NCBI GenBank assembly: GCA_949130485.1
Contig: OX422185.1
Coordinates: 14,135,011 to 14,199,010, forward strand
Reading direction: 5' to 3'
Source of the DNA: Agelas oroides
Lineage: Eukaryota; Porifera; Demospongiae; Agelasida; Agelasidae
DNA length: 64,000 nt
Position numbers and translations under genes: made by a program. This document shows, piece by piece, positions 33,456 through 59,386 of this stretch. Below the pieces are notes generated by a model that was given only the letters and a program-made list of their open reading frames with translations, had not been told where the DNA came from and ran no database searches. Within the stretch, counting starts at the first letter, position 1. Each line of letters opens with the position of its first letter.

Positions 33456-33460
33456 AGATG

Positions 33461-37013: not shown

Positions 37014-37051
<38 letters not shown>

Positions 37052-39378
37052 GATATAGACAATTTTCCATTTTCACCACAAGTGTGAAATTCTGCCGTTC
37101 AACTCACTAGTGTGGGGCTCGCTCACGCTTAATCACACTTATCATGCTACACTGTGTTGGACAAAATACCATAAACTCTGGTGATTAAGTGCACCTCACT
37201 ATTAGGCTTACATTATTTATTAGGCACTTGCATACTTCCTGGTACGCAGCATCATGTATTAAGCACATGTGCATTAAATAGAGTTTATGATGGGCGGCAA
37301 GAGATCAAGTGAAAACTATAGCATTGAGAGCACACAGCAAACTCAGTCACCCTGAAGTCAAAGAACTACACGCGGTTTTTTCCCACTTCAGGCTAACATA
37401 AAGCTTGCAAGCTACATACTTCACGGCTTACGAGACAGGAATTTCTACGCATGGAGCTCGATCCGCATATCTTGAATACACAAGGGCTGCGAACCACACT
37501 TTCTTTGAGGGGGACAGTGTCTTCGCGTCTAATGATCAGCTGCATAGTGCTGCTAATACATGCATGTGTTGGGCGTGGCTTTAATTGCATCCCTTATTCA
37601 GCATATATCCTCTTTGGGTGCACATTTGCTTATACCACTTACACTCATAAGCACATGCGCTTATTAACCAGAGTCTACAATATAGTACACTCTCACTAAT
37701 AAGCCCTCTTGCTTTTTTTATCCCAAGTTCTTACATTGGTAAATTTTACTCGTCTAAACTCACTGTAGTGAGTGTCTTCTAGAATATCTCGTGTCCTGTA
37801 GAAAGCCAGTTTAAGGCTTCTAGTTTAGCCTAATAAACACTGCTATCGAGTGTTTTGACCAGCAGTGCTGCTGCACTTTCAGATACATTTAGTACAACAA
37901 AGTTACCAAGGATATTGTTGACCTCGCATTGAACCCAAGGGTGTGTATTTGAAACTAATTGAATATTTGAGTGAATACCTCCTCCCAACCAGTGCAGAAA
38001 ATGTGAGTTATATAAGTGAGTGTATATGGTATTCAATGTCCCAACGACCCTGCACCTCCTTGTGTAGGAGGTTCTATCTTGAGTGAAGCTTGACTCTTAC
38101 TTCAAGTGGATAAGAAGCAGTTAACAAGTGATTTAGGAACTTGATATGGCTCTTTGTAATTCAGGGAAAGGAAACCCTAATCAGCTAAGAGAACAAACTC
38201 AACTGTAAACTGGCAAACAATATTAATGTGATGTGAAACACTATGACAACTATGCAAAAGTTATGAGCAACATCTTTTAAGCTACTTGTCCTTTCCTGTC
38301 CCTACTGACTTAATTGCTTGAGACGTGATACAAGTTGGGCATTTGAGATATGTCTAACAGGGTTAGCTACAGCTAAAATGACTGGTGTGTTTTTGTGTAA
38401 TGGCGCTGGAAGCTTGACTTCACCATCTCCCAAGTTGTTGGATTTGTTTTTGCGAAACTACTATGCAACTGTTGCATGTAATTCTGAAGCTGCACATGTG
38501 TACATATTAAAACAGTTGGAGTGACATCCAATCTGTAGAGGTGTTTGAGGAACTAATGTCTGGCAGGTGCACAATTAGCAATTAGCAATGTGGAATAGTT
38601 GGAATGTCAGTGCCTATTGTCATTATGTGACTTCATGGGCTTCTGGTGCATGTCGAGCTCTAGAAAAATGCCATTATATTTGATCGAAAAAGTCTGTGTA
38701 GAAAAATACTTGCATAAATGCCTCGTACAATGAACCGTTTGAGGCTTATAAAATTTATGTGGTAAGTAAACTAATGTGTTAGGTTGTATAGGAAATAGAC
38801 AGTCAATTAGATCCCTCAAACTCTAATTGCACTCTGTGTATTTCCCCTACAGCTGCCAAGAGCTGTCGTTTAACCGATTTGTAGCATGTTAATGACACAA
38901 TACTGCAAGAAGCTTATTGGATGTTGCCATGATAATTCAAAACGCTATAGCTTTACTGAGTGAGCTAGCTGCTGGCACTGCTCAAGTTGAGTCACACAAT
39001 AGAGCTGCTGGTAGCAATGGGAGCAGCTTGGGACTTCTGTAGGCAACAGGTTCAGTGTAGATTTAATAGTCCTGAGAAAATTTAATTTCATTTTCTGGTA
39101 TACAAATTGTATCGAAAAAGAACATTTTAGTTTGAATAGGCCTAGGTGAAGTTTTTGAATAAGTAATATACATAGGCACCACTGTATCATTACCCATGCT
39201 AGTTTTATATAGTTATCGGTGATGGAAGTTGGAAAGTAATGTTTTCTTGAATGTAAAGCACGACTCTAACCAATCAGGGAAATTTTCTTCAAACTAATTA
39301 TTACTAGTTCAATTAACCCCAAACCTGGAAAAACTAGTTAGAAGTTAGTTGTCGCTAACCATTGAGTAGTTTTTACAG
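36133..39378. other. intergenic region or 5' introns of gene 2
   Basis: A short TAGCCTC-family element lies at 36243-36320 (AATCTCATTCCCAGGTCTTC against GCCTGGGGATGAGGCTAGC). A (TA)n microsatellite lies at 37017-37048. No coding exon was recognised, although the 5' exons of gene 2 should be here or to the right. Confidence 0.45.
37017..37048. repeat. (TA)n microsatellite
   Basis: An uninterrupted TA dinucleotide run of about 16 repeats. Confidence 0.95.
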
Positions 39379-39426
39379 GGTGCATGAATGCATACTACAA
39401 GGACTGGGAACTGTACACAAGCCACA
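39379..39426 (+). CDS. candidate small exon upstream of the PNP exon
   Basis: Flanked by a TTTTTACAG acceptor and a GTGAGT donor, it reads CMNAYYKDWELYTSH in phase 1 at both ends, which joins in frame to the exon at 41401 (junction codon AAT). At 48 bases it is short enough to occur by chance. The supporting evidence is only splice signals and phase. Confidence 0.3.
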
Positions 39427-41057
39427 GTGAGTTTGTGAGTTTTATAATTCCCATGGCAAAGGGCAAAGTCTTTTTACTGTGTGTGGGGTTATACTTATAT
39501 CTTACTCCCTCAATAACCCAAATACACCAAGAACTTACTTACGTCATCTATAAGGGGAAAGTATAAGCAATATAACATTGTATGCAAATAACTACTACCA
39601 ATCCATATGTGCAGAAGTAATGCAACAGCATGGACAGATGGGTCAAACATATTTCTGGGGCCGGCTAGAGTTGTTTCGTTCCCAGACTTCCAGTTTGTGG
39701 TGACAATATCACATGGACGCAGAAGTCAACTGTAGAGCAGGGGAGGCCTGGGAACAAGAGCATGATGCAAATGCATATTATTACTGCAGCACAAGTTTTG
39801 AACTCTTGCTCTTGTCAAAGTATGAGCAATACATGCAATGATATGTCATGCTATAATTAAAGAGCAGGTTTACTATGAGTGTGCAACCACCAGGTACTAA
39901 ACTACATCAACTGCAAACATGACAGTGGGACTTGTGGAGGGAGCATGCACAAGGGATTAGCTGCCTACAGTAATGCTTTTAACATTTGTGTACTGACCAA
40001 CAGTTGAAAGCAGACCTTACCAGACAGTGCACTGTTTTATCCAGCCCAGGTCGAAACATTTGTTGTATTCTATTAAAATTTGGCTAGTGTTTTACTAAAA
40101 AAACAACCACTATTTATGTCAGTGTAACATAGTTCATTGGTTGTGCATAGGATAATATAGGGTTGCCAATGTGAAAAATCAAACACAGAATCAAACAAGG
40201 CACATCCAGAGCTCCCTAATGCTTAAACAATCACACACTAAATCTTCACCTCCAAGCATATATCGCATACGAACTGCACCGAAACTGATTTATGTGGCTA
40301 AGGGGTTTGTGTATGGGTGGTATCACCAGAATGATGTAATGCAATTGAGCACCCTGGTTTTGCCAAAATGTTGCTGAAGTGTAGGAGTTTCAAATATTCA
40401 AACTTGAGTTTCAAAGGTTGCTTTTCAAAAACAGTGAAGCGTTTTCTTTCTTTCTGGTAAGAAAATAATTGCTGAAACTTTGAGAATTAGAATTTATTCC
40501 AGGTAAGCAGTTACAATGAAGCAATCGCTCCTAGTTCAGGTTTTTGAGTCTTTGTCCAAAATAATAACATAAAACAGGTTTGGTAGTGATTGAAAGTTCT
40601 TTGCCATTGGCACACAATACAAATGTGATATGGGTCTGGATGAGGTTAAGTGATTTAGGACCACGATTGTAAACTTTTTATGACTAACTAGTTTATTGTC
40701 CAGTTAAATTTGTCATTTAAATCTGAATAGAACAGTTTTTGTTGCATTTAAATTGTTGTAGTATGAGTGGTGATATTTTTGAAAATTCAAAAATGATATC
40801 TCCACTTATACAGCATCGATTTGGATGAAAAGACCATTACGTACACTCAGAAAATGTGGCTGTACTCATAAATTGTACCTAAGCAAAGACTGAAAAGCTA
40901 TCACTAACCTCAACTGTGCCATTGTCACAGTTTCAATGGTGTTAGCCAGTATAGAAACAGCTTTAGGTAATAATGATCAAACACACTGTGTTTAGGTGGT
41001 AATCTATTGTATTTGAAAAATGCATAACCAGAATTAATGTCTTTATGAACTGGGCCA
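39427..41057. other. intergenic/intronic stretch
   Basis: A TAGCCTC-family remnant is seen at 39672-39760 (GTTCCCAGACTTCC against GGGAGGCCTGGGAACAAG). No exon was recognised. Confidence 0.4.
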
Positions 41058-41310
41058 AGTGTGCAACTCCCATATGGTTTCTACACCCACCATCTGGATA
41101 TGATGACGTAGGCAATCAGCAGTGAATATTGTAAGCTATGAAAACACAGCAGTAAACAGGTGGGTTTTTGCTACAGTGTTCACATAGCTAATGTACACTA
41201 GCACCTAGAATGGCTTCGTGTTCAGTACCTGATAAGCATATTCACTGCTGATTGTCTACGTCATCCTATCCAGATGGCCGGGTGTAGAAACCATATGGGA
41301 GTTGCACACT
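41058..41310. mobile_element. 253-base MITE-like element upstream of the PNP exon
   Basis: The left arm AGTGTGCAACTCCCATATGG and the right arm CCATATGGGAGTTGCACACT are perfect at the tips, and the inverted repeat continues through about 75 bases (GATGACGTAGGCAATCAGCA against TGCTGATTGTCTACGTCATC). It ends 90 bases before the acceptor of the PNP exon. Confidence 0.9.
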
Positions 41311-41400
41311 CTTAGTGTTATAAACTCTTGACTGGGCCAGTTTTGATTAGGCACAAGAATGATATACAAGTACTGATTGCAGTCATACTCCTCTTTACAG

Positions 41401-42273
41401 ATCATTCAGAGCCAAAATTTCCTTCAACCGAGTGGAAAAGCCTAATGATAAAAATTAGTCCAGTTATTTTGGACATTCAGCAAGCAGATGAGACTACAAA
41501 GAATGCAGTACAGTTGTTTGCAAAACAAGTGGTGCTTATTCTCCATACATGCAACCAAAGTGAGTATTGGGCAGCACTTGAGAGGCTAAAGCCACCAACT
41601 AGAGAGGATGATGGTGAAATTAAAGCTCGTCCCATCCAGTACTCACAAGATGGCTCAGTAATGGGGTGGTTTGCAGGTTATAGGGCTGCTGTTGTAAGGA
41701 CTGAACAAGGGACCAAAGGTCGCAGTGTTCTTACAAAAGCTCTTACTAAATCATTTCCAAATGGCCAAGTGATCATAGGAACTGGTATAGCATATGCCAA
41801 TGACCAAAAATGCAATTTAGCTGATGTCCTCATTTCTGAACAGTACACTGTATCAGGAGGTGCAATCACAAATCATGACCTACATCAGCAGATTGACCCT
41901 AATGTAATGAAAGTCTTTAAGGATCCAGCAAACGATTGGTCGGCCAAAAAGAGTTTCACTTGTGCAAACAATAATCGAACATCAGTTGCTCATATCGGTC
42001 ATATTGTCAGTGTCTCATCACTTGAAATGCTGAGGGAACAACTATTGCTTGCTCCAAATTCCATTGGTGGTGAAATAGAGGGATGGGTTCTTTTTGAGCT
42101 GAAGAAGATGCTAAAAGTTCAAAACGAAAAAGACATCGAAATCATCATCATACATGGTGTTTCTGAGTATCATAACCTCACAATGGGAGATAAATGGCAG
42201 TGGACAGCTGCCAAAGCAGCTATAGATTGCATTCACTACTGCCTAATCAAAAGCGGAGGCACCGAGTTTAATG
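41401..42273 (+). CDS. PNP/UDP-type nucleoside phosphorylase domain exon (gene 2)
   Basis: This 873-base exon encodes about 290 residues of the nucleoside phosphorylase superfamily (PNP_UDP, as in MTA/SAH nucleosidase and purine nucleoside phosphorylase), which cleaves the N-glycosidic bond of nucleosides. Visible landmarks are a Gly-rich GTGIAYAN segment (41778) with CNLADVLIS strand, the ribose-binding-like GGEIEG (42066-42083), and GVSEYHN (42156) followed by WQWTAAKAAIDCI. In active relatives the equivalent of VSE is usually (I/V/C)(S/C)D with a catalytic Asp, so here Asp appears replaced by Glu. The acceptor CTCCTCTTTACAG and donor GTAAGG leave phase 1 on both sides, and the donor codon joins directly to the Roc-COR exon. 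PNP domains also serve as effectors on fungal and bacterial STAND proteins. The ATG at 41328 is intronic. Linking this exon to the GTPase exon is an inference across a 5.7 kb intron. Confidence 0.82.
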
Positions 42274-42711
42274 GTAAGGAGACTTTTCTGGTAGAATTCT
42301 TAAAAGATAGGAATAGTAATGATATTAATGACACTGCTAGTAACCGTTATTGTCTTAACGTGGCTATTTGCCTGTAGTAGGACTGAGGAAGGGCTTGCAT
42401 CATAGCAATGGCAGAAGCCCAGTACCATAGACTGATAGTGAAGGGGTTGCATTTGCATGGAAAACTTCATGATTGGACGTATCTACATTTGCATATACTC
42501 CTTCCTATTTGTACAATCATTCATACAGCTATGAATATTGCAAGGGAAGAAGCAAGAGGTACGTTTTAATAGTGCAATTATTGTACGTAGTGTAACCTAA
42601 TACCCACCACCCCAGCTTTAGTACTGCAAGCAAAATAAATAGAGTGGAGGAGTGAGAGGAATGCTATTTCTGGAAGAGCATGCACGTAATCATGAAGTAA
42701 AGTAGTAGTCC
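42274..42711. other. gene 2 intron, first part
   Basis: No exon is seen. The PNP reading frame runs on into the intron to a stop at 42375-42377, which would be the end only if the intron were retained. Confidence 0.5.
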
Positions 42712-43472
42712 ATATGGCCGTGGAAAACGCTGAAGTGCTGAAACCAAAGTACGGAAACGGAAGTACGGAAACCGAAGTACGGAAGTGAGCCGCCTATCAG
42801 TGTCTAGTGCCTTACTGACTCACGACTGTGCCCTGTAGCCAAAGGGTGACTGTCTCCAAGCGATGTGAGAGCTGAGTACTGACGCATCAGACTCCAGTGA
42901 GCACTAACACAGTCGTTTAGCATGACAAACTCACGAAGTGGGTGTTGTCTTGTCTTGGTCTCATTCCGAGACTACGGTGACTTTGCTATTAGCCTCGTTC
43001 CCAGGCCCCGCCCAGCTTTCCGTCGTGGAAAAGTGGGGCAAGCGACGGAAAGCTGGGTGGGGCCTGGGAACGAGGCTAATTCGCTAGTGTCTCTGGAGTA
43101 GTTTTGGAACTCGTTGAGTCAATTTCGCAAAGATTCTCGGTAAGGAACTATGACAACACTCGCATCTGCATCACTGTCACGAGAACATCAAGAACATAGA
43201 GCCTGCATAGTTGCCCCACTCACTTGGTTTGGATCTGACCACACTCACTTGCAGTCACATGTATCATGATAGCGATGCTCGCTGCAGTCCTAGAGCCCAA
43301 GATCCGGCTCTCACATCGCAGGTATGGAGTCACCCTTTGGCTACAAGGCCTCAACCCACACAATAAGGCACTAAACACCGATAGGCAGCTTTTCTTCTCA
43401 CTTCCGTTTTCCGTACTTCCGTTTCCGTACTTCGGTTTCAGCACTTCAGCGTTTTCCACTTGCCCCATATGG
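42712..43472. mobile_element. ~760-base foldback element with nested second element
   Basis: The arms are about 190 bases: CCATATGGCCGTGGAAAACG and CTGAAGTGCTGAAACC on the left against GGTTTCAGCACTTCAGCG and CCATATGG on the right, continuing through AGTACGGAAACGGAAGTACG blocks and AGCCAAAGGGTGACT/AGTCACCCTTTGGCT. A decayed single end of the same family lies at 58970-59030 (CACTTCAGCATTTTCCACCT). A separate element is inserted at 42988-43080. Confidence 0.9.
42988..43080. mobile_element. 93-base TAGCCTCGTTCCCAGGC-family element nested in a foldback
   Basis: ATTAGCCTCGTTCCCAGGCC faces GGCCTGGGAACGAGGCTAAT, with an inner pair CCCAGCTTTCCGTCG and CGACGGAAAGCTGGG. It is almost a single hairpin, among the best-preserved members of this family here. 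It lies inside the 42712-43472 element, so it arrived later. Confidence 0.88.
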
Positions 43473-46400
43473 CCTGGAAAATTGCCCACTACAGTAGATA
43501 TGTGTAAAATAATTTGTATCATGATTGGAGGGTGTATCAAAAGAGCCACCACAGGCTAAGCAGTGTACTGATGTCAAGGCACATCCATGTATCCTAGAGT
43601 ATACTAGGCTTCAATGGCAGGAGTAGCTTTCATCAAAACTTTGAAAGCTGCAAGTCAGCTGTACGTCAGCTGGGCGTATACGTACCCTGGGCTTATGCAG
43701 GTGCACAAACATCCCTTTCGAGGTTACATTACAGCAACATGTGAAACCTAATTTGAGCAGGAGGGGCTAAGCCCACTGCTCTATTTAGGTTACCCCTGAA
43801 AATGCAGCTCCAAAAAAAAGTTGCTTTAACTTCAAACTTTATGTGTGTGCAAATATTTTCGCATAATGAACATCGATGTGCCAGCCAGTGTTGGTGCTCC
43901 CCCTCTCAACACACAACTTCTGAACATGCAGGTACAGATAAAGTCTTTATGGTTGTGTGGTTCTCAAGATACAATTGTTTGTCCGCCTTCATGCCGGCCT
44001 AGTTACATGAAACTAAATTTCTGAAATACATGAATCAAGAACAATTGTCTCTCAAGAACCACACAATGCATGAAGACGGGACTTCCACTGTTACATTGGC
44101 AAGGACCTATAGGTCCCAATGATACTAGTATTGTTGGCCTATTGCGTAGCTGGGTGTATCCACAGCGAAAAACTACGAAAATCTACTGTCTGATCATTGA
44201 GGGAATGACCCACTCAACTTTTCGGCAACACCCCTCAATGCCCAAGGCAGCTACGGTAACCAAAACCAGCCATGCAGCAGCGGGGTGTTGCAGCTCCCCA
44301 ACAGTGCAGAAATCTTGCCGAGAGTTCCTTCAGAAAAGGAACAGGAATCGGCATCCGAAAATACATCATTTTAGCCAATTATTGAATGTTTCAGACTATT
44401 ACGCTAATCACCTCTAGTGCAAGCAGGAATTGATACTCGAGTTTCATTTTTTAGTCATCGGATACGTTGGACTCCACCTTACTTCCCATGGCATAACCGA
44501 GTATCTGGCTTAGTCTTCATGTACGAGCGTCCAATTGTCACTGGCGTCCGAGTGTTGATACTTTAATCATTTTCAAGTGTTTTCATGAGTAACAGGGCTG
44601 TTAATGGTAACATTGCTGGCAAGAAATCACTGAGCCCAGTGGCAAGTCACTAAACAGGCAAATGATCTTTCTTCAGTCAGGCTAGCATGGTTGAAGCTCT
44701 TACAATGATTAGAATGTTAAGAAGCAGCATGTAATACTGGTACTGCACCCACAACATAGCATTTTCACAGAACTTGAACTATTTGGTGACTCTCAAGCAT
44801 TCCCATACTTAGGTTTGCTCACTAAATTCATAGCTATGTCATTGGAAATTTAGCTGAACACATGTTTGGATAGCTGATAGGAGACACTACAAACTCTGGA
44901 CGTAGGGCTTGAAGACTGGACACCCAAATCCCAGGAATCCAAGAACGCATAGCTTTGGTGGCTATGTTGCACTTTTGACAGAAATTCAACTAGCAAATTA
45001 TTTCTCAGTACTACTGTTTATCTGGAAATAGTTGTTGTAAAAAGTATTTTTGTGGTGTGCATCAACCACAAAAATTTTAAAAATGAATACATTTTACAAC
45101 AAATTATCAATACAGTCAGCACATTTTACACACAGTTTTACAGTGCAGCTAGCTAGTTGTTTCAGTTCTTCGATACCTGTATGCAGGTGACTCATGTGTG
45201 TCAAACATGTGACAACTTTCTCAGTTTCTGGTAATTGTCCGTCTTTACTACCAGAGTATGTGTCTACAGTGTTCCTTTGTTCTTTTTTAAATGGTGATGC
45301 AAGTAGTTTGCCAATAGCCATGTGGCAACCACGAATCCAGCAAGCTGTTCATACTCCATGTTCTCTTGACTTATGGACTGCATAGTCACATTCCAGATCA
45401 CTAAACTTGGGAATGTGGAATTATTTTAATACTGTTAAAAATTTGTGTGGGTATTCTAGACCACCAAAATATTTTTACATGAACTAATAAAACGTAAATT
45501 TCTAGATCTATGGTATAGCATTTTGTATGTGCATAGCAAATGCATATTACGTGCTTGCAGTGGTAGAGCCATGAATGTGGGCTTGAGCAGAATGTGGATT
45601 TTCACATCCACTAGCTTCTTTGATCTCTGCATTTCCTTCTTTATCTAGCTACATAATGAGCTCCCAGGGTGTCAAATGTCATGTGCATGTTGACCTCCAT
45701 TCTCACAAACCAAGACCCTCACATGTCTCTCCTGCTTTTTGTCTGTGAGTCTGTTTTTTTCTGAGACTAGTAGCAGTAAAGTAGACTACTCTGAAGTTAG
45801 AAGATAATGGTGCATTGAATGACAGCTCAAGACAAAGTCATGAGTTTTGGACCTGCAGCATAATTTGGCACAGATTGCCGGTACCTAATTTTTTGTCATA
45901 ACAGCTGCAGTCCAACAGAGCCCTCAGAGCTCTGCATGGGTTCCTGTAATTTGAAAATTTCAAGTGATGCATTTTCATGGCATAGTCCAAGAATGAAGCT
46001 AGAGTTTGAGAAGCACAGCCTCAAGCTCTATTCATATCTGAGGTATGAAGAAACTTCATTTTCTACTTTACCAAAGGTTCTTACAATCCATAGACAAAGG
46101 TACGTAGCTAATGTATTTATGCTTGCTGTACATCCCACTCATGGTGGCGTGTTGCTGCTGGGTGTGTAGCATGCTGTTAGGACTTGAGCTTCGAAAGCTG
46201 GCAGCCTTGTTGTACATTATTGTTCATTGCCGAGTGCATTAACGCGAGGCTCTGAATGGGGGATCTATTCTCAGGATGTGCGTATGTACGTACGTACGTG
46301 GCGGTCACACTTAGGAATTTGCAGTCATGCTTAGGAATGTCAATTTGCGCTCATGCTCGGAATGTTGATTTGCACTCACGCTCAAGAATTGGGCGTCATC

Positions 46401-47957
46401 GTGAAACGTGCATTATGCAAGGACGTCGATGGAGGACAGAGTTGGGGGGTAGATGTTTGCTGGCAATGGAGGACAGGGAGGACAGCACAGTTGGGCCTTC
46501 ACAACGTACGTATTTGGCAGAGTCAAGTGCAGAAACAAGTGCTGAACGCAGCTGACGGCGAGCGACTCTGACGAAGAAAAAAGCAAAGAAGTCAGTCCAT
46601 CGTAGAAGCCAAGAGCAAGAAGAGAACAAGAAAGAGTTCAAAAGTAGAAAGCACGTACTGGAGAGTCTTCATAAGCCAGGTATTGTTCTTTTGGCTCCCA
46701 CTAAACCAGCAGTGCACAATTTCTGACACTTCCTCCGCGCGCCCCACCTGCATGCGCAGTGCGCATGGACACACTGGTGCATGGCGCGGTGCGAGGCATC
46801 ATACGTATGTCTAATTATTTACTGTCAACTGATTCAAGGGCAATGTAAACATACATGGACGCTAATGCATTGTTGAAATGACATGACACTGCGATGTAGA
46901 ATAAAGGTTATCACTGCTGTGTGAAGTATTATTATCATCTAAGATTATGACTATACATGGCACTTTTTCCTGACTAAATGCGGAAGCACTTAAAGAGCGA
47001 CGACTCACCTCTTTGGCAAACTTTTAAGTTTCTCGACCCATGAGCTCTCCTCTACATGACTGCAGTACAAACAATTATGAAAATTGGAGCTATTTAAGGG
47101 ATATAGCATTGGTAGTATCTGTCCCACTGGAGTGAGCATGAGTAACCCCAACACCAGCATCGTCTGCCGGAAAATGTGCTTCAACCAACTGTCCCAGTTA
47201 CGTGTGCACCAAAGACATAACGCAAAACAATGCACATGACACATTGTACAGGAGGGCATGTGCAAGTGCTACGTAGTTGTTCACAGAAGACAGAGGGCGG
47301 CAGAATTTTCTCCCATGCATTGCAGACAAGTTGATCTTTTCAAAGGTAGCATGAAATTCTTTCGCTAGACAGCTTAAAGTTTCAATGGCTAAGCCATTGT
47401 GCCTGTTCAATAGTGCTATGCAGTTTAATAGCCAATGTTTATATAGCATGCATGGCTGCATTGAAACTCATCCAGTCTGTAAAGCTACCTCTGAAAAAGA
47501 TAGGCTGTGTGCACAAAGACAGCAGAGATTCTCGTACTAGCTTTGTGGTCACGTGTCATAGCTTTATGTGTAGGCATTTACTTCTGCAGTTTACTGATAC
47601 TTTGTACACAAGCTGTGTAGTCAGCATGCACTTCACTTAGCCACACAATGATAAATCATTTGCCTGGTAGATAGTCGAGTAGTAGTACATGTACAGTCCT
47701 ACTATTCTACTTCTATGCATGGATCAGGATAGACAGAATTGAAGCTTGTTGATTGTTTCTGGAGTGTAATTATTGTTGCTGTTTACATAGTATCCAATTA
47801 AGGGTCAAAATTTACTTCCTTTCCTACAATGGTGATATGTAAGGATATTACATGTGTTTACTGATGGGCATAGCATTTCCTAGACTCCTCCCTTATTTTG
47901 GCTCAGTGTATGATGGGCTTCTGTTTCAATGTTTACATCCTTTTTTTTTAACTACAG
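43473..47957. other. gene 2 intron, second part
   Basis: No exon is firmly supported. The stretch 43798-43930 is repeated in inverted orientation at about 53205-53330 (TGTGCCAGCCAGTGTTGGTG against CACCAACACAGGCTGGCACA). A CpG-richer patch at about 46225-46810 begins TTGCCGAGTGCATTAACGCG, as does the patch at 20577, and contains a GTACGTACGTACGTGG run. It could be a repeat, or a promoter if the GTPase exon starts a separate gene. Open frames at 44070-44417 and 45936-46169 match nothing. Confidence 0.45.
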
Positions 47958-50251
47958 AGCAACATTATGAAGCCTATCAGCAAGCATTAAAAGATGAAGC
48001 TGCAATACCACTGAAGTATTTGAAAGTTCTATTTTTTGGCCCTCCACGAACAGGTAAGACATCCATGAGACGTCGCTTGATTGGAGAGATTCAGAACCTT
48101 GCGAAGGAACCTGTTCAAGTAAGTACTGGTACAGCAGAACATTACGATGTCATCATTAAGGAAGACAAGAATACCGCTTGGACAACTCTCGTAACAGAAT
48201 CAAAGTGGTCAAGTATAAAGGTCTTGTGTGGCAAAGAAAAGAACACTCATTTACTGGATGAAGAATTGCGGCTTCTCTACCAGCTTATTTCTAAAACTCA
48301 AAATAAGTCTCATCATATTCAAACTGAAGATAAACCTTTAGATGAAAATAGTTCTCCAGTTTCTCCAAACGAAAACAGTCCTTCAAAAGGAAATGAGTCT
48401 TTGAATCAAAGCAAGTCTCCTGTTAGGGATAAACAACAAAGTCCAGTCAAGGATAAAGAAAAAGTTTCAGGAACCAAAACAACTGAGAGTAATTCCAACA
48501 CCTCTGTTCCTTGGGTCGGGCAAGAGCATGAACACAGTGCAGAATATATAGAAAGAAAAGAAATTGACAAGGAATTTGAAGCTTTTGATCAATTCTTGCG
48601 TGAATCTGGAGAGGGACAAAATAAGGATTTACAGGAGGGAACTATCCTTATGAACATGGTTGACACAGGTGGTCAACCAGCATTTCTTGAGATGCTTCCA
48701 GCCTTGACAATGGGCCCAGCACTTTACCTCATTTTCTTCAGGCTCAACCAAGAACTGAAACAGACATACGAGATACAGTATGTCAGTAAAGACACTGAAG
48801 CGGTTCCATTAGGTGATTCTTCATACACAGTTGAAGATGTCATCTTTCAAGCTCTATCAAGCATAACATGCTTCAGCTGTGCTTCACCTAAGAAAGATAA
48901 CATGCCAGTTCCATCTCATGCTGCTGTACTTGTAGGCACACACAAGGATAAACTTGAAAGTGATACAGATGCTAAAGTTAAGGCTAAAGATGACGTACTT
49001 CGAAAAAATCTTGACAATATCTTGAAATGTGACTTCCATAAGATAGACCAGACCATTGTGCATAGTTTTTCTGATAAACAGCTTGTGTTTGCAATTGATA
49101 ACATGACAGGAGATAACGCAGAACTGACATCTGTTCGTAAACGGCTTCAGCAAATAATTGAGCAAATGTTCCAAGACCGTAAGTTTGCCATTCCAGCTTC
49201 TTGGCTTATGTTCAGCATCTTTCTTCGTAAAATGGGAACAAGTATCATGAATTTATCACAGTGTCGCATGATTGGAGAAAGACTGAATGTGAGTGATACA
49301 GATGAAGCACTGTGGTTCCTACACCACTGCGTTGGGGTCCTGATGCACTTTCCTGAAGTAAACGAGATCAAAGACGTTGTGATTTGTAATCCTCAAATTG
49401 TCTTTGACAGTGTTACATATCTGATTTTGGACAGCTTCAGGATTGAGTCGGTACATGATTCGGTTTGTAACAAGTTCAAAGAAGCTGGCCAGTTCCAATT
49501 TAAGGACATTCAGAAGATACCAGAAAGTACAGGTGACAGCCTTTCCCTTCCAAAGCTTGTGAAACTGCTTAAATACCTTAACATCATTTCACCCATCACA
49601 CCTGAAGGCAGTAGCCCACAATCTGATGTTGTGTACTTCATGCCTGCTGTACTCAGATATGCCAAAGAAGGTGAGCTATCCATGAAGCAAAGAACCACAG
49701 ATCAACTCCCTCCTCTGATGATTCATTTCAAGTGTGGCTTTGTACCTGTTGGTGTGTTCTGTGCCAAGATAGCCAGCCTTGTTTCTCAAGGGTGGGAACT
49801 TTGCGACAAAAGTGGTAATATTTTGTGCAAGAACATAGTCACATTTCGAATGTTTGATGGTACCTATGACATTACCCTGATCTCAATACCTAAGTGGTTT
49901 GAAATTCACATTTCTCGCATTGCAGCTCCAGACAGGCCATTGCATGAGATCTGTCAAATAGTTCTAGAAACTGTCTGTAACACTCTTGACCAAGTGATCT
50001 CCAAGATGAATTACGGACAAGTTTTTTGTTCTGATGAAACACCCTATGAGCTGGGTTTCAAATGCCCAAAACATCTAAATGATGATCACTTGGCCATTAA
50101 CAAGCCAAGGTATGGAGTAGAAGTGCCATCAAAATCTTCAAAGTCTCTCTGGTTGTGGTTAAACTACCATGAAGGAAAATCAATAATGAAGTGTGATAAT
50201 GAACGCATGAAGGTTGAGCCTATTGATCAAAGTCTTGTCTGGTTTGGAAAG
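47958..50251 (+). CDS. Roc-COR (ROCO) GTPase exon (gene 2)
   Basis: This 2294-base exon encodes a Roc (Ras of complex proteins) GTPase and COR dimerisation region. The P-loop GPPRTGKTS is at 48038, the switch-II motif DTGGQP at 48662 and the G4-like GTHKDK (in place of NKxD) at 48935. The COR part follows with PASWLMFSIFLRK and VKLLKYLNIISP, then a C-terminal region (FKCGFVPVGVFCAKIASLV; WLWLNYHEG). Roc-COR proteins such as LRRK2 and DAPK1 act as GTP-regulated dimers. Unusual is a spacer of about 200 residues between the P-loop and switch II containing a Ser/Pro/Lys-rich tract with repeated SPV and SP motifs (about 48350-48465). The acceptor tract TTTTTTTTTAACTACAG sets phase 1 at the start; the donor GTAAGT leaves phase 0. 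The ATG at 47852 lies in the intron. Confidence 0.9.
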
Positions 50252-50325
50252 GTAAGTCAATCCTGATTTAATTGTCTAGTTCCACTTATCGGATTTATGC
50301 AGTTGTCATGCTCAATCCTTTTTAG

Positions 50326-50335
50326 GGTATATCAG
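50326..50335 (+). CDS. predicted 10-base microexon (gene 2)
   Basis: CAATCCTTTTTAG precedes GGTATATCAG, and GTAAGG follows. The GTPase exon ends in phase 0 while the Ig exon starts in phase 1, so they cannot join directly. These ten bases (Gly-Ile-Ser plus one base) convert the phase exactly and complete a Val codon with the Ig exon. Inference from splice signals and phase. Confidence 0.65.
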
Positions 50336-51470
50336 GTAAGGACACCTCCCATGGCATACAGTTACTGGCAAGTGTTGTTGGAAAAGGACAATGATGTGCA
50401 AGTTGATAATGACTTTGATTGGTCTTGCTTGATTTGTGGTAATTCTACAGAATTTCCCCCAACTGGACTAACATAGTAGCCTGGATTTATGGCCAATAAT
50501 CACTGGAGTCCAAGGGCATAGCTCAAAGACAAGTGTTGGTTACAATTAATTCCAGGCCACCATGCTATAACTGTTAATCCTGATTGGTCCGTGTTGTGAT
50601 TATGAGAGCATTCTTGGTGATTACTATACACAAAAGGTATGTAGTTTACACTATGTACAAGAGTTTACTATAAGTTGATTTGACATGCAACTTATAATCA
50701 CCTGTATTGCAGTGTACTATACTCCTTTTCAAGGTTACAAGGTATTAAATATAATATTTGCTGTGAATATCGAAGTTATACCCTAGTTTGCTGCTACCTA
50801 GATATATTAAGTGTATACTGTCTGGTGAACATCAAGGTGTTAGGACATTGAGTTGTCAATCATACTGTAGTGCTCATACATAGCTAGCTACATAGCTTCC
50901 TATCAAAGGCACTTAACTAGTAAGTCTTCCTGGGAAAGTAGTAGCATTTCCAAGCTGTGTCTCACTCTTTAGTATACAAGTATGTGTGCGTATTGTTGTT
51001 AGTGAAATGTGAAGCCTCCAAGGTAAGCAGACATGTGCTACAACTGCTGGCCAAAGACTAAAGCTCGATGATGGAATGTGGTTCTACATGTGTGTATTCC
51101 AGTAATTAATTTCTGCAGTTCCATTATTTAGCATTTTCCAGTAAACCCCCACCCTCGCAAACAATTACTGGGAAGATTTGGGTTGAAAAATAAACAATTC
51201 ATCATGTCCAAATTAACATGACTTTGATTTGCACTAACCAGTCCATGAGAATTTCTCCCAACACCTTGCCATGACAATAGATTTGATGTGATAGAAACTA
51301 AATAGTATAATCTGAAGCTTTTACATGCATGACATTGTGATTGTAGAAAGAACACTGCAAATTGAGGTGCACTGTGTCATAACTGTAGAAGTTGGCAGTG
51401 ACTGAGATTTATTTTGTGAAGTTTCTACTGTGTTGAAGTTAAAACGTGTGACTCCTTTTCTTCCTCACAG
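50336..51470. other. gene 2 intron
   Basis: AT-rich intron with no recognised exon or repeat. Confidence 0.5.
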
Positions 51471-51743
51471 TCAACATCACCCAACATCCAGAACACCAGT
51501 CAGTAACCACTGGAGCAAACATAAAGTTTCATGTTGAAGCCACAGGACATGATGTTCTACAGTTTCAGTGGCAAAAAGATGGTAGTGATATGGACAGCAA
51601 TGAACCTCGGTTCCAGGGTGACCGTACCAGTACCCTGCAAATTCGGTGTGTAGAGAAAAGTGATGAAGGTCACTACAAATGCCTCGTGAAGTATTTCTTT
51701 GAAAAGAGTGGAAAGCCTTCATCTGAGGCTAAACTTAGAGTTT
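51471..51743 (+). CDS. Ig-like domain exon (gene 2)
   Basis: One 91-residue immunoglobulin-like domain is encoded in one symmetric phase 1 exon. Seen are HPEHQSVTTGANIKFHVEA (A' and B strands), the core Trp in LQFQWQKDG, STLQIRCVEKSDEGHYKC with the DxGxYxC F-strand motif, and AKLRV (G strand). The usual B-strand Cys is Phe/Val, so the standard disulfide is lacking, as in many cytosolic I-set domains. Ig-like modules mediate binding; next to a cytosolic GTPase and a Death domain it probably acts inside the cell. The acceptor is TTCTTCCTCACAG and the donor GTAAGT. Confidence 0.87.
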
Positions 51744-52532
51744 GTAAGTTGTGTTCTGTGAATGAGTGGTTAATGCTACTACAACTGGCTAGTTGATCTG
51801 CCAAATTCCTATGCCATACCCCCTGCTCCTATGCAGGAGCAGGGTGTGTGGCATGGGCGTGGTCAAGGAACAAGTAGATGGGTGACACTGACATATAAAG
51901 TAAACTCTGTGGTTTTACTTGTATCTTCATGTCCACTAACAACCATAAATCTGGTCAAAAAACATGATAAAAGCACTGGACCCAGGCTTTAAGTCCCCTG
52001 TGTAAACATACTTATAACTTATAGCCACTGTGGTTGAGAGCTGCGAATGTTTGAGCTGCATCCGATGATACTTGCATTGAATCTGGCCCGCTACCCTGGC
52101 TGGAAGAGACTGTCTCCCTCCGCTTGGATGGTGCTTCTAAGTACTACTGATACTGTCGTCTTGCTGCAGGTAAGCTTTCCACTGAACATCAGTATTTTTA
52201 CCGTACATGATTTTTCACATGCTTAACCGGAAACGCTATTTTTAGTAACACTCAGCACCAGCTGTCATAGATTATGCGAAGTTGCATGCCCTTTCACTGC
52301 CCTTGGCTGCACAAAGACAAACAGTGAAAGAAATAGTAGCCACAGCATCTCATCAAATGTGGTATGTGTGTGCCACGATCTAATGTACCACAAGCTGACA
52401 ACCTATGTTACACTGGTCAACTTGAGTGACTAGACAGTCACTGCAAACTCTCTGCCGTAATGAGTATTTAAGTCTTGGTTGACCAAATTAACCCAGGCTA
52501 GCCTGGTTAGTCTTAATAAAGCAGCATTTTGG
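51744..52532. other. gene 2 intron
   Basis: No exon is recognised. A short inverted repeat near 51818-51855 pairs ACCCCCTGCTCCTATGC with GCAGGAGCAGGGTGT. Confidence 0.45.
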
Positions 52533-52839
52533 TAGCCTCGTTCCCAGGCTCTCCCCGAGCGCAAACAAAAAATCAAAAGGAAAGGGGAGAGCCTGGTAAA
52601 ATTTATCACATGAGAAACGTCATAGGTAGAGAGAACTTAATTACAAGTGGGTGAAAGAATGAACTCGCCCACGCTTTATGTTACTCGTTCGGTTGTGAAA
52701 GCTTTATGACTGACAGAATGGGACTAGGTAGCACTACGCTACATTACCTGGCAGTATGGCAAGCTATGGTGAGCGTACACAGACCCGTACATTCGTACTG
52801 CAAGCGACGGAAAGCTGGGCAGGCCTGGGAACGAGGCTA
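52533..52839. mobile_element. TAGCCTCG-family element with perfect 9-base target duplication
   Basis: It starts TAGCCTCGTTCCCAGGC and ends GCCTGGGAACGAGGCTA. GCATTTTGG stands directly on both sides (52524-52532 and 52840-52848). A 9-base duplication is typical of Mutator-like and some other cut-and-paste families. The left half resembles the 4600 element (TCTCCCC, GAGAGCCTGGTA, ATTTATCAC), while the right end carries GACGGAAAGCTGGG as in 42988-43080, so it is a chimera of two subfamilies. Confidence 0.9.
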
Positions 52840-52860
52840 GCATTTTGGGGTAGGAGAAAA

Positions 52861-52937
52861 ACATGGACGGGACTTGAACCTGTGACTTTCACCTTAGTAT
52901 GCTGATACTCTACCTTTTGAACCAGCAAGCCCATCTG
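52861..52937 (-). tRNA. tRNA-like sequence, probably pseudogene or SINE head
   Basis: Read on the - strand it contains a B-box-like GGTTCAAGTCC in a T-arm with CAGG/CCCG pairing, and a 7-base anticodon loop ATACTAA (anticodon ACT, Ser-like) between stems pairing at four of five positions. A short D-arm (TGCT/AGTA) precedes it. The acceptor stem does not pair. I therefore take it as a tRNA-derived relic. Immediately beyond it is the right target repeat of the 52533 element. Confidence 0.5.
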
Positions 52938-54425
52938 GCAAGAACCGCCACAAGTTTATCCTTAAGAACACTTCCTTCCACCTAAATGACACTTGCTGTG
53001 GTGGGTAGTGGATTGTTTTGTGTGACCAGGTGATGTTTATGCTGGCAAACTATGTTACAATGTTCAACTTGAGTGACTATACAGTCGCTGCAAATTCTCA
53101 GACATAATGGATATTTAAAGTCTAGGACAACCAAACCCAGCTTAGCCTGGTTAGACTGAATAAAGCAGCAGGGAATGAACAGTAACGTAACACTCTACGG
53201 TCCTTATTTACAACATCTTTTCGAAGTTGTGTGTTGAGTGGGGAAGCACCAACACAGGCTGGCACACCAATGTTCATTATGTGAAATTTTCTGCACATAC
53301 ATAAAGTGTGAAGTTAAAACATAATGGGATATGGAGATCGGACATTCATGGCTTAAATGGGTGGGCCAGTTATTGGCATTTCGGACCATAAACACAATCA
53401 CACCAGCCTTTGCAACTATCACTATACAATTATTGCTTATGCACAAATCTACTAAGAGCTAGTGAACCAAAAGACCAATTAGTATTATAAGCATCCTAAT
53501 TTTCACCATCCTCTGACTTCATAATTTTTCAATTTGGTAAGTAGGGGAGGAAAGCATGTGAAGATTGCCAGTGCAAATACAATGTCATACTTAGCCTCAT
53601 ACCCAGGCCTCCAGGAAATAGCCTACTCTTTGAATAAGTACAGATTACCCACTTTATTTTGCTGGACATCAGAAACTTGTGTAAAATTAACACTAACACC
53701 AATCAGTCAGTCCAGTTTGCAAGAATTGTTTACAAATTTGTCCATTTCAAGTAAACTCTATGGCATGTGAATGATGCCCTTTGCAAAGCAATATGATGCA
53801 GACCCTTGCTGCAAAAGCAATAGCAGTTCTGACTTCAAATTCTTCCTAATATGCCTCCTAACCTATTCCTAGGCTCATTGAAATGAGCCTGGGAACAAGG
53901 CTAACACATGCTGTGAGATCCATCCTTCCCAGACCCTCTTGAAACACACAAAAATGGTCTAATGTTCTGAGTGATGTTTCTTGTCGAATGGCCTACTGTG
54001 TAAGGAATGTTGTATTTGAACTTTTAAATTTGGTACTAAGTGTTCTGATGGGTCAGTGCACAATGGACTGCTGCATGGTATAGCTTACAAAAGCTTGAGA
54101 AGGCTGTGAAGTCTCTAGGGAAAGCAGAGAACAAGCTACGAGGCAAGGATTTTTCTACCTCCAAATTTGACCAGTCACATAATAACACGTTCTGCAGGTT
54201 AGTTAAGGTCTAGTAAGGAAGTGTTGTGTGTTTGAAGCAGTTAACTATCTAGTTGGCTGCCCTGAGAAGCAGATCTCAAGGTGGACACTGCAAAGTTGTC
54301 AGTTCGTCTAATAAACTATAATGTCGCACATTATATAGGTGTGGTCCTCTCCATATAGTGATCTCTCACCTGCATTTCCCACCATTTACATTTGGTTGTT
54401 TTGATCTATACTTATGATTGGTTAG
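52938..54425. other. gene 2 intron
   Basis: It contains the inverted copy (53205-53330) of 43798-43930 and a small TAGCCTC-family hairpin near 53868-53904 (CCTAGGCTCATT, AATGAGCCTGGGAACAAGGCT). At about 54090-54199 an exon-like stretch, LQKLEKAVKSLGKAENKLRG, is bounded by AG and GT, but its phase (2 and 2) does not fit the neighbours. It may be an unused or alternative exon. Confidence 0.45.
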
Positions 54426-54509
54426 GTTTGGAATCTGAGTCTAGTTTCTCAAGTTTAACACCCAAGAGGAAGCATCCAACTGCTGAGGAGATCCCAGAAG
54501 TTGAACTGA
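54426..54509 (+). CDS. linker exon before Death domain (gene 2)
   Basis: An 84-base exon, phase 1 on both sides, encodes LESESSFSSLTPKRKHPTAE and EIPEVEL, a Ser-rich then basic and acidic linker with a PKRKH patch that could act as a nuclear signal. It joins in frame to the Ig exon (TGT, Cys) and to the Death exon (ACC, Thr). The acceptor is TTGGTTAG and the donor GTATGT. Confidence 0.72.
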
Positions 54510-54584
54510 GTATGTATAATGTAATGATAGTGGTAACTGTTTATGAGACAGATCTGTGAGATTTCCTACACCTTGTACATACAG

Positions 54585-54862
54585 CCATTGGTGACCTTCT
54601 TGAAGTCACAAACTACTTGCAATACCTTGGCAAGACTGACATATACAATTTAGGGCTGATTCTTGGGTTGTATTATCCTCATTTGAAAAACATGGAGAAC
54701 TCAGAGACATTTAGAGATGACATGATAGCTGCATGGCTGCAGAAAGAAGACAAAGTACTCACGAAGGGCTTGCCAACATGGGGAACATTAGTGAAGGCCC
54801 TGAGAGACTCAAGAGTGAACCAAACTGGAGTTGCTGCGAGTATTGAAGCAGAAAAACTGTAG
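54585..54862 (+). CDS. Death-domain terminal exon (gene 2)
   Basis: The exon encodes a six-helix Death domain: IGDLLEVTNYLQYL, then IYNLGLILGLYYPHLKNME, FRDDMIAAWLQKED, GLPTWGTLVKALRDSRV, and a C-terminal helix with GVAASIEAEKL before the TAG stop at 54860. The W..LV.AL pattern is the conserved core of Death domains, which assemble signalling complexes such as those of TNF receptors, MyD88 and the PIDDosome. The acceptor TACATACAG sets phase 1. It completes gene 2, giving at least about 1,270 residues from 41401 onward. Confidence 0.88.
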
Positions 54863-55354
54863 TAGTGCAAACTTTGGGTACAAGCATAGCATAATACACA
54901 ACTAGTATGTAGGATACTATTAATATGAGAACAGTTTTGATGATTGTTATACTATGCAGCTGCAAGCACACACACACACAATCTAGCTACTCTCAGTGAT
55001 TCAGTCAAGTTTATACCAAGGAATCAATGGCTTCAATATTAATGGCTGTTATTCTTCTTGTTGGTGCTCTTTGTTTCCATGAGGCATGTTTCTGCTCTAC
55101 CATAAAATCAGAATAAGCACCCATAGAAAATAAGCACCCCATGAATATAGGCACCTATTTTGATTACAATGACCACATCGCGTTCATAAGCACCCATACA
55201 AAAATAGGTACCCCAAATAAACCATCTCCAAATGTAACCAAGCTATTGACTAACCCAATGTTATGTTTAGTCTGCATTCCTTGTATTAAAGGTCATGCAG
55301 GTGACATGCCTATTCATTGTCACTTACTAATGCTGTATACACATGCATATACAG
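54863..55354. other. gap between gene 2 stop and unit 3
   Basis: A short (CA)n tract lies at about 54967-54980. Repeated ATAAGCACCCATA-type blocks lie at 55115-55210, remnants of a repeat. No promoter or first exon for unit 3 is recognised. Confidence 0.45.
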
Positions 55355-55552
55355 TTGGAGGAACACCTGATAGTGCTGCTGGATCGACCTCAAGCTCTGC
55401 TGGTGCAACAGTTCCACCAGTGCACTCCTCAGCTCAGCTGTCAACCCCACTCACCTCTTATCTACAGCCCAGTATGCACCATCAAGCTCCACCATCACAC
55501 CAGGGACAGCAGCCTCAAATGCCAATCACCTCCCAATTTCAACAGCCCATGG
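55355..55552 (+). CDS. Ser/Pro/Gln-rich exon (unit 3)
   Basis: A 198-base exon, phase 1 on both sides, encodes GGTPDSAAGSTSSSAGATVP through TSQFQQPM. It is low-complexity and probably disordered. The acceptor is ATATACAG and the donor GTAAGT. The phase also allows splicing directly from the gene 2 linker exon (junction codon ATT), bypassing the gene 2 Death exon. Confidence 0.7.
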
Positions 55553-55779
55553 GTAAGTTAAGTAATGTAAAATCCACCATTCCTCTATAGTGTGCAGTTT
55601 CAGAACCATACTTGTTCATCCAGGGGGGATGGCCTGGAGACCAATACTCCTGGCAGCCCATTTGGTACAATTTTAGGCACCCTGGAAAAGGGACCGTGGG
55701 GTGTCCACATCATTGCTGTCATGTATTGTAAAGGTAGTTAGTGCTACCCTTATGCTACTCACATCTCTTATCATACCAG

Positions 55780-55836
55780 TTACAAGTGTGCCACAAATGC
55801 AGTTACAACCAGGAAACCAATACCCACCTCAACAAG
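55780..55836 (+). CDS. small Gln/Pro-rich exon (unit 3)
   Basis: A 57-base exon, phase 1 on both sides, encodes TSVPQMQLQPGNQYPPQQ. The acceptor follows CTCTTATCATACCAG and the donor is GTAAAT. Composition matches the exons on either side. Confidence 0.65.
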
Positions 55837-56512
55837 GTAAATAATTACTATGGGCAGATTTGTACGTTTGTAAGGTCATGGTAACAGATCCAGCAGGTCC
55901 AACAGCCACTGGACCAAAGTTTGGTGTACCAACTAGCCTGTAGAAAGTCACAGAGCATCAAATTGGAAAACTGAAGTATAGTGAACCACATTGAAAAGTG
56001 CCATTCAATTCAGTACAACACGTTTTGCAACCTACACCATTATGGTGATGAAGACAGAAATGTAGACAGTAACTGCTGGAATTCAGAAGCCGTTTTTACC
56101 TTAGAATGGCCTCAGAAGGGTTCTGAGAGCATCTAAGTTGTAAACATTTCCTGGGTGTCATGTGCCGTATGGTTCACACATGCTTATAGTTGTTCTAGAC
56201 TTCCAGAACATTGAAAGAGTGCTTACTATAGTACGTACCTTACTTGCTTCTATCACTTCCTTACCACCTTTTGCAAATGTAGGACTTCTATTCCTTATAT
56301 GGAATGTTAGAACTATTCAAATGATACTAGCGTTCAGAAAGTTTTTCCACTGACCATACTTTGTGGAATTATAAGCAGAAAGGCAGGGAAAACATTTTTC
56401 ACTGCTTTTCCACTGCTGTGTGAGCAACAAACCAACTGTGTAGGCCTGAAAGAAAGGCTGATAATGACCCAGAATCATGCATTTTGACACTGATAATAAT
56501 AGTTATGTTTAG
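55837..56512. other. intron of unit 3
   Basis: No clear exon. At about 55890-55922 a phase 1 stretch DPAGPTATGPKF lies between an AG and a weak GTGTAC donor; this is only a possibility. Confidence 0.4.
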
Positions 56513-56807
56513 TATGTGTGTACTGACACACTGAAACCAACTGAGAGGCAGTTGATGATTGAGTTGCATAATACTGTAGCCAGCAACTTGCGACCCATAG
56601 GCACTTTTCTTGAAATTCCTATTGGAGAATTAAATACAATCGCTGAACGTGAGCGTGGTGACCCCCAGAGGTGCCTCATGGAGATGCTGGGTGTGTGGTT
56701 GCATCGAACCAACCCACCAGCTAGCTGGCCTGATATTGCTGATGCGGTTGAATTCACTGGAAGACCTGATATTGCAAAGCAGATTAGTCAGAAGTACTAT
56801 AAGTTAG
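56513..56807 (+). CDS. second Death-domain exon, phase-mismatched
   Basis: The sequence reads TERQLMIELHNTVASNLRPI, TFLEIPIGELNTIAERERGD, RCLMEMLGVWLHRTNPPASW and PDIADAVEFTGRPDIAKQIS, a complete Death domain with the CxxxMLxxWL and W..I..A. helices. The acceptor appears to be GTTATGTTTAG at 56512 (phase 0) and the donor GTTAGT after 56807 (phase 2). Neighbouring exons are all phase 1, so inclusion would need a converter exon or would shift the frame. It may be a decaying duplicated exon or belong to a different isoform. The open frame continues to a stop at 56909. Confidence 0.7.
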
Positions 56808-56909
56808 TGGCTACACTTGCAGCTAGTGTAGCATGTAATATGTTAGCATTTTCAGTCCAGAAGCCAGATATAAACTATAGCCACTTTAGGATGCATATTG
56901 CAGTGGAGT

Positions 56910-56967
56910 AGGAACGGGGGGGGGGGGGGGGGCAGTGGCCCCCCCCCAATAATCCAATAGGGGGGGC

Positions 56968-57004
<37 letters not shown>

Positions 57005-57110
57005 AATCAGGCTCCATGTTATAGTATATATTATACTATATCATGCTGATGGTGATCATACCTTACTCCCTCCCAATACACCTTGCCCCCCCCCCCCCCC
57101 CCAATCCAAA
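56910..57110. repeat. poly-G/poly-C inverted tracts
   Basis: Runs of 18 G, then 9 C, 7 G and more than 30 C, with a further 18 C at about 57087. GTGGAGTAGGAAC on the left faces GGTTCCTGCTCCACTG on the right (57112-57128), so the whole is an inverted-repeat element with homopolymer interior. Run lengths are probably unreliable in the assembly. Confidence 0.75.
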
Positions 57111-57289
57111 ATTGGTTCCTGCTCCACTGTATTTTATTATGTATTAGAGCTTTATACATGTTTATCCAAGCCTCTTCCAAGATCCTGGGAATGAAGCTGT
57201 TTTCATTAGCTATTCAGAAATGCTTGCTTATAATCAATCTGATTTCCTCCTTGTAACCTGATACTATCTCTGATTGCAATCATTTGTAG

Positions 57290-57793
57290 GCGTTTTAGGA
57301 ATGCAGCCACAACCTGTTTACAACCAGCCAACAATGTATTCAGCACAGCAGCACATGCCACAACCACAACCTTATGCTCAAACACAACATGAAGTGCAGC
57401 CATTTCAGCACCCGCAATTCTTTGCATCTACAACTTACCCGCAACAGCAGCAGACAGGGCAACAAGGGTATGGCATGCCACAGCAAAATGTCACCATGCA
57501 AGCACCTCAGCAAATGCAATCTACATTCCAGCCACAAATTCCACCAGGAATGTATGCCCACCATATGCTACAGTTCTATTTTCAGCCTGCAGCTCAAGTG
57601 CCCATGCAACAACAACAGCAAGCGGGGAACTACCCCATCCCCCACCAACAGCAGAATGTACCACATGCACAACAACCATTTCCAGGCTCAGCACAGGCAG
57701 GGCACATACCTCAACAACCTCCTCAGTCCCAACCACAACAGGTGTCATCTCTTCCACCACAGCCCAGTACCAGTCAAACATCAACCGCTGATG
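57290..57793 (+). CDS. long Gln/Pro-rich, prion-like exon (unit 3)
   Basis: A 504-base exon, phase 1 on both sides, encodes 167 residues rich in Gln, Pro, Met, Tyr and His (for example MQPQPVYNQPTMYSAQQH, YPQQQQTGQQGYGMPQQN, VPMQQQQQAG). The composition is that of a prion-like, phase-separating segment; no folded domain is visible. The acceptor is TTTGTAG and the donor GTAAGT. All three frames are open over much of it because of the CA-rich composition, but only this one fits the splice phases. Confidence 0.78.
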
Positions 57794-58169
57794 GTAAGTT
57801 GTAGCTGCGGAACAGTTAGTTTGCATCAAACGATCCAACAAGCATCTGCTTGAGATGTGTTTTCTTGATTTTGCTACTCAGGGAAGGGAAACTCACATAT
57901 TTATCAAGCCACAGTAACTGTTGTTCTCGTCCTCTGTCGTTGTGTTTCCTATCAAGTGTAGGGAGTATATATGGATCGGCTAGGGTCAATTTTCTTTCCA
58001 AGTCTACGGGATAGTTTGCAATCTATTTAGCATGTCTCAAGCATTTTCTCACCAATCTCACTCATTCTGCACCAGGTTCTCACTCATTTTCGGTCTAAGA
58101 GGTTGAGATCCCTGATATAGAGAAAGTTTGGATACTTGTCAATCAACACCATAAGCATTGTAGTGTACA
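57794..58169. other. intron of unit 3
   Basis: No feature is recognised. Confidence 0.4.
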
Positions 58170-59365: not shown

Positions 59366-59386
59366 GTGTCGTTTTTGTGGCGAAAT

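Follow-up and report, generated by a model that had tools for sequence, protein, structure and literature searches.

A candidate DAPK-like Roco gene with PNP-fold, Roc-COR, immunoglobulin and Death-fold exons in the sponge Agelas oroides

Can a single animal protein join a PNP-type domain to a Roc-COR GTPase and a Death domain, and would the PNP domain of such a protein still cleave nucleotides? This question is raised by positions 41401-54862 (+) of a 64,000-nucleotide stretch of the Agelas oroides genome (G000:C3:14135011-14199010, hereafter the window), which we analysed together with searches of 259 Mb of genome sequence in 141 contigs. Roco GTPases have been studied chiefly through LRRK2 and DAPK1; in this family Roc-COR is a nucleotide-driven dimer switch, and in DAPK1 it is followed by a Death domain. 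On balance, we favor the interpretation that the locus is a gene, complete at its 3' end and incomplete at its 5' end, for a DAPK-like Roco protein composed of a PNP-fold domain with a damaged site, Roc-COR, an immunoglobulin (Ig) domain, a linker, and a Death domain.

As the preliminary description had it, six exons join without frame conflict; the spliced translation comprises 1269 codons and a single terminal stop, AG acceptors are found at all six exons and GT donors at the first five, and all five junctions (phases 1, 0, 1, 1, and 1) are in phase, which is weak evidence alone as five in-phase junctions are expected by chance about once in 243 cases. Exon 1 opens at an acceptor and has two bases left over, and at least one 5' exon carrying the start codon must thus be missing. 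The forward frames of the 9.9 kb preceding exon 1 (31501-41400) yielded no Pfam domain. A CARD-like exon located approximately 0.7 kb 5' of another PNP copy (L021) was considered as the missing N-terminus and rejected, as none is present in the window; the exon has 14 genome matches including itself, of which one other lies within 10 kb of a PNP exon, on the opposite strand. The corresponding frame, CARD-like or otherwise helical and with a start codon (L021:506-823, +, beside the PNP exon at C8:9.27 Mb), has no Pfam match. The maximum 19-residue hydropathy across the spliced protein is 1.64, indicating no clear membrane segment, and the DAPK-like Roco protein is probably cytoplasmic.

The domains encoded by these exons were identified by profile searches and by predicted folds. 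The Roc GTPase and COR share one exon (47958-50251), in which the P-loop GPPRTGKTS and the motifs DTGGQ and THKD are intact and COR is adjacent, the combination that marks a Roco protein; its COR-A (E 1.5e-6) and Roc (E 0.0017) matches are both under the Pfam cut-offs. A profile of 20 Roc-COR relatives finds, at 1.8e-6, the solved structure 4wnr, which is listed as "Leucine-rich-repeat protein" and which we take to be Methanosarcina Roco2. A 10-nt micro-exon, GGTATATCAG (50326-50335), is followed by the Ig exon (51471-51743), which matches Pfam I-set at E=1e-14 (54.8 bits against a cut-off of 23.7) and in which, by eye, the first canonical Cys appears to be absent, and by a linker exon of 28 codons (54426-54509) that was called from splice signals and frame alone. 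The terminal exon, which carries the stop (54585-54862), is predicted to encode a Death-fold domain. Sequence-level Pfam and PDB profile searches were negative for Death, with no PF00531 match for the window exon or 10 relatives; a structure predicted from a 17-member alignment (pLDDT 94.1) is a helix bundle with seven helical segments. When this model was used in a Foldseek search, the first 23 of 56 matches were Death or CARD structures, the best being 2of5_H (probability 1.00, TM 0.69, E 0.05), and none reached E 0.001.

With regard to the first exon (41401-42273, approximately 290 aa, with a phase-1 acceptor and a phase-1 donor), a Pfam scan with PF01048 gave no match, and the identification as PNP is based on matches of paralogues and on the predicted fold. 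Among five paralogues scanned with PF01048, L010 passes (26.7 bits), L012 and L029 fall below the cut-off, and L007 and L030 have no match, while a 20-member PNP profile finds MTA/SAH nucleosidase (MTAN) in the PDB at 1.9e-7. The best of five AF2 models of the window exon has a pLDDT of 71.9 and a pTM of 0.78 (the five span 40.2-71.9), and its top Foldseek matches are MTANs (E approximately 1e-9, TM to target approximately 0.66), so that the exon is predicted to adopt a PNP/MTA-SAH-nucleosidase fold. Comparison with PADLOC models suggests a relationship of this domain to PNP-type immune effectors: 19 of 20 aligned PNP copies match "Effector, PN-superfamily", presumably a CBASS effector model, at E<=0.1 (best 1.8e-13), and 18 of the 20 match PDC-M60C (best 3.4e-15). 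The window copy itself matches PDLC00759 weakly (E 0.0035, 13.9 bits), and no match was obtained in PADLOC scans of its duplicate (see below) or of three exons from other PNP genes, the latter being too short for a good control. A search for relatives of the PNP profile across the genome contigs collection confirmed none of 57 pattern matches.

The order and identities of the domains given in the preliminary description are borne out by fold, profile, and Pfam evidence, and by a duplicate with the same order; of the profiles it had named for checking, Ig is above its Pfam cut-off in the window copy, Roc and COR are below theirs, and PF01048 and Death give no match.

A key issue is whether the PNP and Roc exons, separated by an intron of 5.7 kb (42274-47957), belong to a single transcript or to two neighboring genes, one with PNP ending within 42274-47957 and the other encoding Roc, Ig, and Death from a 5' exon of its own in the same interval. 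We used neighbor order across the genome to evaluate this, covering 23 PNP places (from 28 matches, with three split pairs merged and two fragments dropped), all 132 COR matches (COR-A, E<=0.001), all 76 Death matches, 86 of 147 Ig matches (the weaker ones being dropped, none of them near COR by inspection), and 20 of 105 NACHT matches (by inspection, no dropped match is near PNP). These match numbers are lower bounds, as 105 of 314 candidates were scored for NACHT, 150 of 161 for Death, 150 of 354 for Ig, and 148 of 298 for TRADD-N-like exons, and the Death search detects solely the Death subtype of the window. At 5 of the 23 PNP exons, a COR match follows on the same strand within 20 kb, against 0 in each of the three other orientations; none of 20,000 circular shifts reached five (maximum, four) when 22 of the 23 PNP exons were moved, all but that on the small contig C38. 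Counted among the five loci are the window gene and the duplicate; another, at C3:0.58 Mb, has a TRADD-N-like exon between PNP and Roc. At the remaining 18 PNP exons no COR match was found within 20 kb downstream.

This strand-specific order argues against two genes, as does the matching phase of the PNP donor and the Roc acceptor; all 16 close PNP exons (the window and L007-L021) are able to end at a phase-1 GTAAG or GTGAG donor, and all 16 close Roc exons (window, duplicate, and 14 relatives, leaving out L048 and L049, in which the match starts inside the exon) have a phase-1 acceptor at their start. In the interval itself, a scan of the three forward frames gave no Pfam domain, read-through beyond the PNP donor shows no conservation in the duplicate, and no coding match resembling a shared 5' exon was found between the interval and the 1.5-kb flanks upstream of 14 other Roc loci; the matches obtained with L047 lie on the opposite strand and resemble a repeat. 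The sequence directly 5' of Roc is common to the window intron and the PNP-Roc locus at C2:2.97 Mb (E 7e-5). Two genes would nevertheless account for the length of the gap and for the presence in it of AATAAA at 42634, 45486, and 46900, and most close Roc copies have no PNP upstream yet start at an acceptor, meaning that those Roc exons must rely on different 5' exons; the 5.7 kb could also conceal a short terminal or first exon. Taken together, a single transcript containing the PNP and Roc exons is probable from the genomic sequence, whereas two neighboring genes are unlikely, with an appreciable residual chance. The same intron also carries a palindromic, MITE-like element with 55-nt inverted arms (96%) at 42720-43459.

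For the 3' part of the gene, related Ig exons follow COR within 6 kb on the same strand at 15 of 132 COR matches (2 upstream on the same strand, 0 and 0 on the opposite strand), and the Death subtype follows within 12 kb at 9 of 132 (0, 0, and 1 in the other orientations); COR, Ig, and two Death matches occur at C10:3.66 Mb, and COR with seven Ig matches at C3:0.57 Mb. A fixed order of all domains is argued against by two observations, i.e., at 4 of 23 PNP loci (C2:17.4, 2.72, 2.80, and 2.97 Mb) related Ig exons lie 6-11 kb 5' of PNP and on its strand, and neither Ig nor Death was found in the regions searched at two PNP-Roc loci (at C2:2.97 Mb, in the 6 kb downstream of Roc). The Ig exon at these four C2 loci may precede PNP or belong to a neighboring gene; related Ig exons within 12 kb downstream of PNP occur at just 2 of 23 loci. 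Phylogenetic groupings similarly do not support a single ancestral PNP-Roc fusion: the PNP-linked Roc of C2:2.97 Mb clusters with the window pair (support 86/93, under the 95/80 mark) and that of C2:2.72 Mb with PNP-less Roc (88/82), and in the PNP tree the C2:2.7-3.0 Mb copies are not joined to the window pair.

The duplicate, on the minus strand of contig C2 (17.385-17.408 Mb), contains PNP, Roc-COR, Ig, and Death in this order, is 68-78% identical to the window protein, and carries the micro-exon GGTATACCAG between the same splice sites as the GGTATATCAG of the window. Upstream homology between the two copies ends approximately 60 bp before the PNP exon, within the 1.5-kb upstream flank of the duplicate. 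Introns are nearly as similar between the copies (76-88% nucleotide identity) as exons (81-90%), and the duplicate by itself thus cannot prove a single transcript; its domain order may reflect inheritance rather than selection. The same comparison bears on whether the locus is a decaying duplicate and not a working gene, a reading that would fit exons scarcely better conserved than introns, pairwise dN/dS values of 0.48-0.89 across modules, and the interruption of the duplicate's Roc exon by approximately 6 kb, which leaves it matched as two pieces (positions 1-286 and 277-769). Against this, all six window exons are open and their splice sites and GTPase motifs are intact, making decay a quite improbable explanation; the aligned pieces of the duplicate likewise contain no stops.

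If the favored single gene is accepted, the question remains whether its PNP domain is active, as the preliminary description had assumed in proposing a nucleoside-cleaving effector. In the profile alignment, GGEMEG aligns with the Met-Glu of MTAN, which we take to be ribose binding, and GVADY with the Asp that we take to be catalytic; MTAN titles in the PDB name the mutants Glu12Gln and Asp197Asn. While 18 of 20 aligned PNP copies retain GGEMEG and the Asp, the window copy has GGEIEG and SEY and the duplicate GGETKG and SEY, so that the catalytic Asp is replaced by Glu in this pair only and the MEG Glu is in addition replaced by Lys in the duplicate. The pair forms a fully supported clade with a stem of 0.35, whereas the remaining seven inner branches of the 16-row clade measure 0.018-0.06. 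Continued activity in the window protein, with Glu replacing Asp, would be in keeping with the MTAN fold and family membership, with the open frame and a dN/dS near 0.5, and with retention of E226, aligned with the MEG Glu of MTAN, and of E54, aligned by eye alone with its E12. The substitutions confined to the pair, its long stem, and the missing PADLOC match of the duplicate make such activity improbable, and loss or alteration of activity in the window/duplicate clade appears likeliest. With Glu in place of the catalytic Asp and a changed ribose-site motif in both copies, the PNP domain of the window copy is probably non-catalytic or altered, and a working nucleoside-cleaving effector is therefore not upheld for this copy. 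The full catalytic site is retained at two other PNP-Roc loci, C2:2.72 and C2:2.97 Mb.

Some PNP exons elsewhere in the genome have varied partners, suggesting that PNP behaves as a mobile module. PNP is followed by NACHT at C3:0.55 Mb and, at a locus whose PNP match is broken across frames and contains a TAG (C22:6.97 Mb), by Death (PF00531, 1.2e-9) and NACHT (1.5e-25). TRADD-N-like exons follow PNP at C3:0.58 and 0.64 Mb; these exons, named from descriptions in passages of PMC8195603, have no Pfam match; their genome matches number at least 150, with many of them on C1 and C3. Exons 3' of PNP with a likeness to the DED/TRADD-N units described for Amphimedon lie at L014:20-1231 (-) and L013:404-1354 (-). 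On C17, PNP is followed by a Death exon (PF00531 at 0.0069, short of the cut-off), and two copies have a weak COR-B match ahead of PNP (0.038, behind another weak match, in the one scanned). The two PNP exons just before NACHT, in a genome with at least 105 NACHT matches, agree with the earlier proposal that Roc-COR stands in place of NACHT on PNP proteins. For the window gene, a search of the four domain exons and, in forward frames, of the two longest introns and the 9.9 kb upstream gave no NACHT; the GTPase of this gene is Roc-COR, not the STAND NTPase of an NLR.

Based on knowledge of the Roco family, Roc-COR in the window protein would act as a nucleotide-driven dimer switch that, once activated, may cluster Death domains and thereby recruit Death-domain adaptors, with Ig as a putative protein-binding arm. 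The likeliest role for PNP in the window clade would be nucleotide binding, oligomerization, or that of a worn-down effector, while nucleotide cleavage upon activation of the GTPase could be carried out by the intact PNP domains at C2:2.72 and C2:2.97 Mb. A more general proposal, which we put forward tentatively and consider rather unlikely, is that a single PNP exon type, keeping one splice phase, has been joined to Roc-COR, NACHT, and TRADD-N-like modules, and that the enzyme in the PNP-Roc-Ig-Death protein serves, with no nucleotide cutting, as a nucleotide-binding sensor or regulator gating a Death-domain GTPase switch.

Like DAPK1-type and other animal Roco proteins, the window gene has Roc-COR followed by Death; unlike DAPK1-type proteins, it shows no kinase or ankyrin repeats and has an N-terminal PNP-fold domain and an Ig between COR and Death. 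PNP effectors with ATP nucleosidase activity were reportedly the subject of work by Rousset et al. in 2023. The window gene similarly has a PNP-superfamily domain at the effector position, but its switch is Roc-COR, its PNP site is damaged, and its PADLOC match is weak (0.0035). PNP effectors are described for bacterial defence and fungal NLRs in passages of PMC10197012 and PMC9966839, the former presenting PNP_UDP as a frequent N-terminal domain in fungal NLRs and also as a bacterial immune ATP nucleosidase. Passages of PMC8195603 describe AP-GTPase and COR proteins akin to DAP kinase and report at least 24 alternative domains on the bacterial AP-GTPase-COR proteins; those named there are GT4, TIR, DRHyd, caspase, trypsin, FGS, and EADs, and PNP is not among them. 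These prokaryotic conflict systems, as presented in that part of the source, likewise combine one switch with interchangeable effector or adaptor modules and occur as multiple paralogues per genome, but have N-terminal LRRs and a C-terminal variable domain, whereas the window gene is from an animal and has the effector-type domain first. The same source lists PNPase among the variable domains of Amphimedon Death/TRADD-N proteins and gives 357 TRADD-N proteins for Amphimedon, with which the at least 150 TRADD-N-like matches found here fit; its section 10 makes no mention of Roc-COR for sponges. The Amphimedon expansions are likewise combinatorial, with PNPase and Death-like domains, and TRADD-N-like exons follow two PNP copies here, but no TRADD-N-like exon was found in the window gene. 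We found no description of the order PNP-Roc-COR-Ig-Death in searches of open-licence papers, in agreement with the suggestion that this order is unmatched; the fusion is not isolated, however, but belongs to a combinatorial family.

The 132 COR-A matches, some apparently joined to PNP, suggest that Roc-COR can replace STAND NTPases as an immune or cell-death switch in animals, as in bacteria, and hint that the exchange of immune effectors on GTPase switches may extend to animals. PNP sites that are intact in some copies and damaged in others, on a common chassis, provide a natural contrast for the role of nucleotide cleavage.

Finally, several other features were observed in the window. An NLR-like NACHT exon (PF05729, 3.5e-22) is located at 740-2419 (+), and a candidate downstream gene at 55303-60892 (+) contains P/Q-rich frames and two Death-type exons, at 56513-56908 (PF00531, 0.0002, just under the cut-off) and 60545-60889 (0.078). 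A reading frame shared nearly letter for letter between 59171-59533 (-) and 62266-62571 (-) is probably a recent repeat.
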